This document shows, one piece after another, positions 40,125 through 44,499 of a DNA stretch of 64,000 nucleotides; within the stretch, counting starts at the first letter, position 1, and each line of letters begins with the position of its first letter. The stretch comes from Acidimicrobiales bacterium (GTDB lineage Bacteria > Actinomycetota > Acidimicrobiia > Acidimicrobiales > SKKL01): the NCBI GenBank assembly GCA_034521975.1, contig JAXHLR010000005.1:434001-498000 (forward strand), given 5' to 3'. The position numbers were made by a program, and so were the translations under genes. The notes under the pieces were generated by a model. That model worked only from the letters and a program-made list of their open reading frames with translations, was not told the origin of the DNA and made no database searches.

Positions 40125-41156
40125 ATGACCATCGACGCACCGGACTCGACGGGGCTGCGCGACGCCCTGCTGGGCCGTCCCGAACGCATCGCGCGCATGC
40201 TCGACACCGCCGGGCCCGTCGACGGGCTGCCGCGTCACGAGCAGGTGTCCAACGTCGTGGTGATCGGCATGGGCGAGGCTGCGCTGGCCGGCGACCTGCT
40301 CGAGGCGGTGGCCGGCCCGTTCATGGCGGTGCCGCTGGTCGTGCACCGCGGCTACGAGCTGCCGTCGTTCGTCGCCCCCGACAGCCTGGTCATCGCCATG
40401 TCGGTGTCGGGCGCCACCGACGAGACGGTGGAGGCCACCGAGGCGGCCTATGAGACCGGCGCATCGCTCGTGTCGGTCACCAGGTCCGACGGCTATCTCG
40501 CCGAGCTCACCAGCGCCTGGCAGACCCCGGTGATCGAGTTGCCCGACGACGTCGGACCTCGGCTCGAGTTCGTCCCGCTGGCCGTCGCCGGGCTCATCGC
40601 CCTCGAACAGGTGGGCTTCTTCCCCGGTGGCCGCGAATGGCTCGACCGGGCCGTCGCCCAACTCGCCCGGCGGCGCGACCAGCTCGTGTCGGTCGACGAT
40701 GTGGCCGCACGGGTGGCCCGCACCATCGACCGCACCCTGCCGGTCGTCTACGGCGCCGGACCCATCGGGCGGGTGGCCGCGATGCGCTGGAAGCAGCAGT
40801 TCAACCTCACCGCCAAGGTGGCGGCGTTCGCCAACTTCGTGCCCGAGCTGTGCCACAACGAGGTCGCCGGATGGGGCCAGCACGGCGACCTGACCCGCCA
40901 GGTCTTCACCCAGCTCGACCTGCGTCACGACCACGAGCACCCCAACGACACCGAGCGCCTCGATCGGGTCGACGACCTCATGCTCGAGGTCGTGGCCGAC
41001 CAGGTCAGGGTCGAGGCCGAGGGCGACGGGGCGCTGGCCCAGCTCCTCGACCTGGTGCTCATCGGCGACCTGGCCGCGGTCGAGATCGCGCGGCGAGAAG
41101 GGATCGACCCCGGTCCGGCCCCCGCGGTCGAAGCGGTTCGGATCACCGCAGGGTAG
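40125..41156 (+). CDS. Bifunctional phosphoglucose/phosphomannose isomerase-type SIS protein
   Basis: A 343-residue protein with two SIS sugar-isomerase folds. The phosphate-binding SVSGATDETVEAT and the later FNLTAKVAAFANFVPELCHNEVAGW (with the catalytic Glu/His region) match the archaeal and actinobacterial PGI/PMI family. Expected role: fructose-6-phosphate to mannose-6-phosphate (and glucose-6-phosphate). The usual SxSGxT start is SVSGAT, intact. It begins seven bases after the Trm112-like gene and completes the supply route to manB. Confidence 0.88.
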   Translation: MTIDAPDSTGLRDALLGRPERIARMLDTAGPVDGLPRHEQVSNVVVIGMGEAALAGDLLEAVAGPFMAVPLVVHRGYELPSFVAPDSLVIAMSVSGATDETVEATEAAYETGASLVSVTRSDGYLAELTSAWQTPVIELPDDVGPRLEFVPLAVAGLIALEQVGFFPGGREWLDRAVAQLARRRDQLVSVDDVAARVARTIDRTLPVVYGAGPIGRVAAMRWKQQFNLTAKVAAFANFVPELCHNEVAGWGQHGDLTRQVFTQLDLRHDHEHPNDTERLDRVDDLMLEVVADQVRVEAEGDGALAQLLDLVLIGDLAAVEIARREGIDPGPAPAVEAVRITAG

Positions 41157-41157
41157 C

Positions 41158-41163
41158 TACACT
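41158..41163 (+). promoter_or_regulatory. -10 element upstream of ahcY
   Basis: TACACT is placed to start transcription near 41170, which gives an unusually long leader for this window. No clear -35 is visible. Confidence 0.45.
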
Positions 41164-41288
41164 GTCGGCTGGCCTTCCGGGGCTGGGCTGTGCAGAGTGG
41201 GTCAGTGGGCCCCAGCCTGGCCCGGAACGTGCTGTTCGCCGCGCTTGTCGCGCGGTCCCCCGACCCCGTCCAACGGAGCCCACCACAC
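41164..41288 (+). promoter_or_regulatory. Structured ahcY leader, candidate riboswitch
   Basis: The leader of about 120 bases can form stem P1 (41175-41181 TTCCGGG with 41221-41227 CCCGGAA) enclosing P2 (41182-41187 GCTGGG with 41211-41216 CCCAGC). An independent hairpin (41239-41244 CCGCGC with 41250-41255 GCGCGG) lies before a weak GGAG (41275-41278). A second GGCTGG copy (41167-41172) could pair with the same CCAGCC, giving a mutually exclusive fold. Sensing of S-adenosylhomocysteine or SAM is plausible from the gene downstream, but I could not match the SAH riboswitch consensus. Confidence 0.4.
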
Positions 41289-42758
<1,470 letters not shown>

Positions 42759-43752: not shown

Positions 43753-44160
43753 CTACCGGCCCTCGACCAGATGGTACGCCACGCCGAGCCGGTCGTAGGT
43801 GCGCGTCGCGCGCCGATCGCGTGTCAACAGCAGCTCACCGTGCTCTGCCGCAGTGAGGCCGACCAGGGCGTCATAGACCGCCCCTCCCTCGAGTCCCGCT
43901 CCCGCGACCAACGAGAGGAGATTCCGCTGCAGTGTGGCGGGTGCGGTCAGCAGTGCGTCGTCGGTCCACCGATTGAGGAGCCGGTCGGCAGTCGTGGAGT
44001 CGACCCGGTGCGGCGCGGGGAGTCTCGTCATGACCGAGTACGACTCGACGATCACGTGGGTGGGCAAGCGGGCGTCGACCGTTGCCTCGCGGCAGGCGTC
44101 GTGGTGCTCGTGCCAGGTCAGGAGGGCAGGAACGCAGACGCTGGTGTCGAGCGCGGTCAC
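43753..44160 (-). CDS. vapC: VapC family PIN-domain ribonuclease toxin
   Basis: A 135-residue PIN domain. N-terminal TALDTSVCVPAL supplies the first acidic residue, IVESYSVMTRLP the conserved Glu, and YDALVGLTAAEHGELLLTRDRRA the later Asp pair. The GTG start overlaps the stop of the antitoxin gene (GTGA at 44160-44157), the usual antitoxin-first VapBC arrangement. Predicted to cleave RNA (often tRNA or rRNA) when freed from VapB. Confidence 0.88.
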   Translation of the reverse strand: MTALDTSVCVPALLTWHEHHDACREATVDARLPTHVIVESYSVMTRLPAPHRVDSTTADRLLNRWTDDALLTAPATLQRNLLSLVAGAGLEGGAVYDALVGLTAAEHGELLLTRDRRATRTYDRLGVAYHLVEGR

Positions 44161-44402
44161 CGGCGGGTGCGGTCGAGGGCGGAGAACAGCTCGTCGTCGG
44201 TGAGCGGCGGCAGCGAGTCGATCGGGGTCGCGACCAGGCCTTCCGCGGTCTCGGTCAGCTCGACCGACGCAGGGGCGGCGACGATCTCGATGACCCCATC
44301 GCGCTCGACGATGTCGACCTCGCCTCCGGCGAGCAGGCGAAGTCGTTCGCGGATGGCCTTGGGCACGACGATCCGCCCGGCGCGATCGATGGTTGTTCGC
44401 AT
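44157..44402 (-). CDS. vapB: VapB family (SpoVT/AbrB-fold) antitoxin
   Basis: An 81-residue protein whose N-terminal half is an AbrB/SpoVT swapped-hairpin DNA-binding domain (TTIDRAGRIVVPKAIRERLRL). The C-terminal half is an acidic toxin-binding tail (DELFSALDRTRR at the end). The ATG at 44402 is preferred over an upstream in-frame ATG because the domain starts right after it and TAGAAT sits seven bases upstream. It likely represses its own promoter together with VapC. Confidence 0.87.
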   Translation of the reverse strand: MRTTIDRAGRIVVPKAIRERLRLLAGGEVDIVERDGVIEIVAAPASVELTETAEGLVATPIDSLPPLTDDELFSALDRTRR

Positions 44403-44415
44403 GGCACCGATTCTA
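44403..44415 (-). promoter_or_regulatory. Leaderless promoter -10 of vapBC
   Basis: TAGAAT on the minus strand (44415-44410) is seven bases before ATG 44402. Flanking AT-rich sequence contrasts with the GC-rich surroundings. Confidence 0.55.
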
Positions 44416-44499
44416 CCATCATTCATGCCAGGACTTCGGACCTGGTCGATGTTCGCGACGTCCTGCACCCCCGGGCCAGGATGTACCTGGCCGCTGACC

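Follow-up and report, generated by a model that had tools for sequence, protein, structure and literature searches.

The ahcY locus in the window

The window, the whole stretch of 64,000 nucleotides that was analysed, comes from a genome of 3.3 Mb and carries ahcY, the gene for S-adenosyl-L-homocysteine (SAH) hydrolase. Judging from the sequence, a leader of about 120 nt runs from a -10-like hexamer to the ahcY ATG at 41289. A relative of the same genus (G001) shows 83% identity over the query. The features of the locus are as follows, with the evidence in parentheses.

41158-41163, + strand: -10-like promoter hexamer TACACT (sequence; -10 boxes of homologues)
41175-41181, + strand: P0 5' strand TTCCGGG, a lineage-specific outer stem (pairs with 41221-41227)
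41185-41190, + strand: P1 5' strand GGGCTG (model match; covariation)
41191-41198, + strand: 5' bulge TGCAGAGT with conserved GA at 41195-41196 (conservation in homologues)
41199-41203, + strand: P2 5' strand GGGTC (covarying pairs)
41204-41207, + strand: AGTG tetraloop of the [A/U]GNN type (G at loop position 2 in 143/143 copies, in a parse that awarded a small bonus for that G)
41208-41212, + strand: P2 3' strand GGCCC (covariation)
41213-41218, + strand: P1 3' strand CAGCCT (covariation)
41221-41227, + strand: P0 3' strand CCCGGAA (pairs with the P0 5' strand)
41238-41256, + strand: GC-rich linker hairpin (folding; not generally conserved)
41262-41266, + strand: GACCC, predicted as a possible partner of the P2 5' strand in the ligand-free state (minimum free energy (MFE) fold)
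41275-41278, + strand: Shine-Dalgarno (SD) sequence GGAG (overlaps AGCCC 41277-41281)
41289-42758, + strand: ahcY, S-adenosyl-L-homocysteine hydrolase (TIGR00936, 642.8 bits against a cut-off of 497.6; PF05221)

Raw folding energy was uninformative for this leader. Its MFE of -54.9 is what its composition would lead one to expect (z +0.31, with 118 of 200 shuffles folding equally well), so that comparison with relatives was needed to decide the matter. The neighbourhood also codes for a VapBC-like pair at 43753-44468, where a PIN-domain-like ORF (43753-44160, - strand) overlaps an AbrB-like ORF (44157-44468, - strand); by eye, from the translations, the two resemble a VapBC toxin-antitoxin.

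Structure of the conserved motif

A sequence-only reading of this DNA had pointed to a structured ahcY leader of about 120 bases. Comparison bears this out, since the leader contains a conserved, covarying motif that recurs in relatives, and the compact motif is common to the ahcY upstream regions of other Acidimicrobiales families. Two covariance models, R1 (alignment A1, 17 hand-trimmed copies) and R2 (built from 92 copies), match the window at 41182-41221. The conserved element is about 34-40 nt long (41185-41218 in the window) and comprises stem P1 (GGGCUG/CAGCCU), a one-sided bulge of 8 nt with GA, and hairpin P2 (GGGUC-AGUG-GGCCC).

The consensus is GGGCUG-bulge-GGGUC-AGNN-GACCC-CAGCCC, in which two stems are stacked: P1 of 5-6 bp (GGGCUG/CAGCCC) and P2 of 5 bp, the second pair of which is often mismatched. 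A scored parse of the stems was used for 143 copies. The bulge varies from 5 to 17 nt among copies, with G at position 5 in 112/143 and A at position 6 in 100/143, and the tetraloop is mostly [A/U]GNN. Across its forms the element measures about 34-46 nt, and no pseudoknot was detected in it by eye. The long form has two NGNN-capped hairpins on one stem; the window represents the short-bulge form with P0 added. In the window the scored parse and the covariance model pick different GGCTG copies, and the model's pick agrees with the relatives.

Several pairings that the sequence-only reading had singled out are present in the DNA but differ from the conserved fold. GGCTGG is indeed complementary to CCAGCC, but the conserved inner stem uses another register, GGGCTG (41185-41190) with CAGCCT (41213-41218). 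The outer stem of seven pairs (P0, TTCCGGG/CCCGGAA) was seen in family f1 alone, in the window and the two relatives nearest to it; it is kept with changes in L003 and L004 and is absent from other families. GGGTC (41199-41203) pairs with GACCC (41262-41266) in the predicted MFE fold, whereas the conserved fold pairs it with GGCCC (41208-41212). The hairpin proposed before the ribosome-binding site exists at 41238-41256 but is not generally conserved.

In the metH-linked copies (L125, L144, L188, L200, L204, L358 and L360-L362) the closing C-G of P2 is replaced by G-C, G-U or a G.G mismatch, and these copies constitute a possible subtype.

Covariation of the stems

Copies of the motif from relatives show strong covariation of the stems. 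In alignment A2, 94.5% of cells were paired and 78 double-change cells were found, against 12.8 +/- 9.6 in shuffles; the signal collapsed in a slid-partner control. Counting on the AhcY protein tree (134 genomes) gave 27 compensatory double changes. Pair P2.4 changed 14 times on this tree, always to another pair, nine times on both sides and never with a break. In a divergent copy (L299) P1 reads GGGCAC/GUGCCC, which indicates that pairs apparently invariant elsewhere also covary. In long bulges (12-17 nt), positions 2-3 pair with positions 8-9 around the second NGNN loop in 25 of 27 cases (0/2000 shuffles), the pair forms being CC/GG, AC/GU and GC/GC. Comparison of sequences thus establishes a conserved, covarying RNA fold, its position and the set of genes that it precedes.

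Distribution and gene context

A total of 102 out of 298 genomes of the order contained matches to R1 (E<=0.1), and in the annotated set 85 matches lay directly before ahcY on the same strand. Against 396 genomes of the phylum, R1 matched members of the order only, plus one weak match without ahcY. Searching 397 genomes of the order with R2 gave 159 genomes with matches (E<=0.3); the annotated loci comprised 137 ahcY, five metH, one add (adenosine deaminase) and 23 in other contexts, the last being mostly weak matches. The 137 ahcY-linked loci belong to about 134 Acidimicrobiales genomes and have the motif directly upstream of the gene. Further searches added four metH and four add copies. In total, nine genomes have the motif before metH, all of them in family f53, and five before add, four of these in family f132, which belongs to a different order of the same class and in which the add copy is the only motif copy found. 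Gene functions were confirmed by the curated models TIGR00936, TIGR02082 and TIGR01430. Among the genes found, no motif copy preceded the SAM synthetase gene (metK). Model matches away from ahcY with E above about 0.005, most of which lay inside genes or in GC-rich DNA of low complexity, were regarded as chance except where metH or add followed.

A search for the exact consensus pattern in 84,980 species genomes, using no gene information, matched 75 contigs: ahcY is immediately downstream in 72, two contigs end before the gene and one is an unrelated Caldilineaceae contig. The motif together with ahcY also occurs on public MAG contigs (L210, L234, L250, L267, L254) whose titles, 'Bifidobacterium breve' and 'Acidobacteria bacterium', appear wrong.

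Analysis of the order revealed an AhcY match in 184 of 198 genomes. A strong motif copy was found in 56 of about 148 genomes with a close AhcY orthologue, and a search of 69 leaders lacking one revealed about 11-13 divergent copies at the expected place. In genomes with only a distant AhcY match, no strong motif copy was found before ahcY. Such a distant AhcY alone (E ~1e-70, about 48% identity where listed) is present in a sizeable minority of the sampled order genomes (e.g. G010-G013, G017 and G023).

Position of the motif in the transcript

A TANNNT hexamer whose 3' end lies 3-16 nt before P1 was found in 117 of 142 homologues, against about 2.7 expected. The mRNA is thus predicted to start at or just before P1, and the motif should form its extreme 5' end, the promoter being predicted from sequence. 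In the window the gap between TACACT and P1 is larger because of the extra stem P0. The reading frame from motif to start codon is random (49/49/45 across 143 leaders), and 78 of the 143 contain an in-frame stop between the two. This random, often closed frame argues against a general translation start at the GTG at 41190, which the sequence-only reading had considered. The motif is non-coding, and a Shine-Dalgarno sequence is present in nearly all motif leaders.

Comparison with known systems

No family in Rfam 15, including RF01727, RF01724 and the other SAM classes, matched the element; weak matches (Pseudomon-groES and others) fell far below their own gathering scores. Consistent with the sequence-only reading, in which the known SAH riboswitch consensus could not be fitted, RF01057 gave no match in 40900-41500 (E<=10), none in 16 homologous loci (E<=2) and none over its cut-off in 118 order genomes. 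A single sub-threshold RF01057 match (L209, genome G112) is flanked by none of the three genes ahcY, metH and add.

The motif resembles the SAH riboswitch RF01057 in its place before ahcY and sometimes metH, in the response to SAH that would be expected, and in the one or two operons regulated per genome (PMC4239095). It differs in that the conserved GAGGAGCGCUGC core of RF01057 is absent, no pseudoknot was detected by eye, the host group is Acidimicrobiia and not Proteobacteria, and adenosine deaminase is an added target. The SAM/SAH riboswitch RF01727 is likewise of very small size and restricted to a single order (PMC2864571), but it forms an H-type pseudoknot (PMC7367207), does not match here and precedes metK in Rhodobacterales (PMC2864571), whereas the motif was without metK among the genes found. 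SAM-Chlorobi RF01724 is also an orphan motif, found in one lineage ahead of operons with ahcY (and metK) (PMC2864571), but it is a separate family with no match here. Preliminary in-line probing of SAM-Chlorobi RNAs gave no sign of binding to SAM or SAH (PMC2864571), a precedent which means that linkage to ahcY alone does not establish binding. The SahR and McbR repressors follow the same regulatory logic for SAM-cycle genes (PMC4239095); they are proteins acting on DNA palindromes, whereas the motif is an RNA element whose stems covary and whose half-sites are variably spaced.

The literature searched, the coverage of which is incomplete and not proof of absence, contains no description of the motif. 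In that literature and in Rfam, a single riboswitch class selective for SAH and a single class of mixed SAM/SAH specificity were found, neither of them in Acidimicrobiia. The motif is filed here as a new candidate riboswitch class, separate from the known SAH class.

Possible expression platform

No intrinsic terminator was found in the 143 motif leaders. Leaders were folded in ON and OFF states with soft constraints, using composition- and length-matched swaps as control. With the motif off, pairing between the SD region and the motif strands was 0.293 in native leaders versus 0.208 in matched swaps (p=7.7e-4). Competition with the motif was likewise stronger for native linkers than for matched swaps (p=1.5e-4); the ON-OFF difference in SD accessibility against matched swaps was not significant (p=0.14). 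In the window leader, folding predicts that the SD is unpaired at 0.22 with the motif off and 0.55 with it on, because the P1 5' strand can pair with AGCCC (41277-41281), which overlaps the SD.

Overall, the folding computations suggest alternative pairing with the SD region. The pairing of GGGTC with GACCC at 41262-41266 may be part of the OFF state, at best as an alternative state. A GGAG[CT]C form of the SD, similar to the P1 3' or P2 5' strand, is present in 30/100 motif leaders against 0/21 ahcY leaders lacking the motif (p=0.0018), a post hoc pattern uncorrected for kinship. The leader data fit a translational ON switch, without proving one.

A (T)CG[AG]CGCGCC box is enriched between the motif and the Shine-Dalgarno sequence, with CGNCGCGC in 29/151 against 5.8 in shuffles. 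The box is common to ahcY, metH and add leaders (e.g. L354-L357, L125, L034 and the window at 41236-41244).

Proposed function and alternative explanations

AhcY splits SAH into adenosine and homocysteine, MetH consumes homocysteine and adenosine deaminase consumes adenosine. The gene set ahcY, metH and add fits removal of SAH, which would be the simplest signal common to the three. SAM looks less likely than SAH as ligand because no motif copy was seen before the SAM synthetase gene. Known SAH regulons, those of SahR and of the SAH riboswitch, include ahcY and metH (PMC4239095).

The sequence-only reading had suggested a possible new SAH- or SAM-responsive element, and the covariation, the gene set ahcY/metH/add and the lack of an Rfam match lend support to this suggestion. 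Properties expected of a riboswitch were found: a covarying RNA structure, a location in the 5' UTR on the same strand as the gene, and association with several non-homologous genes of one pathway. The element is probably the aptamer of a new candidate riboswitch class in Acidimicrobiia that senses SAH and raises translation; we infer both the ligand and the ON direction. When SAH accumulates, P1 and P2 would be stabilised; without SAH, the strands of both stems would base-pair instead with the linker and the region of the Shine-Dalgarno sequence. Binding of SAH would free the ribosome-binding site and raise AhcY, and in some genomes it would raise MetH (homocysteine removal) or adenosine deaminase (adenosine removal). 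A size of about 34-46 nt with no pseudoknot detected by eye is small for such an aptamer and counts against this reading.

The fuller claim, for and against which the case is evenly balanced, is that the motif is a second natural SAH-selective aptamer class, unrelated in structure to the known class and one of the smallest RNAs that bind metabolites, serving as an ON switch for SAH hydrolase, methionine synthase and adenosine deaminase across Acidimicrobiia. If true, this would be a further instance of RNA aptamers converging on one ligand, here by a structurally independent route to SAH sensing. The tiny size of the motif would be attractive for structural work and for SAH biosensors in methyltransferase assays, and it would provide a first regulatory RNA handle on control of the SAM cycle in Acidimicrobiia, a little studied group.

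The strongest alternative, though an unlikely one, is that the same RNA is a riboswitch for adenosine or another SAM-cycle metabolite (homocysteine, MTA or SAM). Adenosine is a product of AhcY, and the motif precedes adenosine deaminase in five genomes, being the sole copy found in family f132; the metH copies in nine genomes are hard to explain by adenosine, the lack of a metK copy among the genes found speaks against SAM, and ahcY is by far the main target.

Less probable again is recognition of the RNA hairpin by a protein, which could be an RNA-binding regulator or AhcY. Protein sites are another typical setting for small stem-bulge-hairpin elements whose loop G is conserved, and the architecture of the motif, in which no pseudoknot was detected by eye, would suit a protein as well. 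Its occurrence before three non-homologous, metabolite-linked genes in two orders is against this, and autoregulation by AhcY would not predict the add copies in f132. A constitutive 5' stem-loop that senses nothing and serves to stabilise the mRNA or to fix its start site would agree with the location at the predicted mRNA 5' end; it is improbable, as the conservation of loop and bulge sequence and the restriction to SAH-pathway genes exceed the needs of a simple hairpin. Very improbable is a DNA operator, the inverted repeat being the palindromic site of an SAH-responsive repressor like SahR or McbR. Elsewhere, ahcY and metH are under the control of such repressors (PMC4239095), but the half-site spacing varies with the 5-17 nt bulge, which speaks against a dimer that binds DNA; the pattern is also asymmetric and its orientation fixed, and the G-U pairs and compensatory changes fit RNA.
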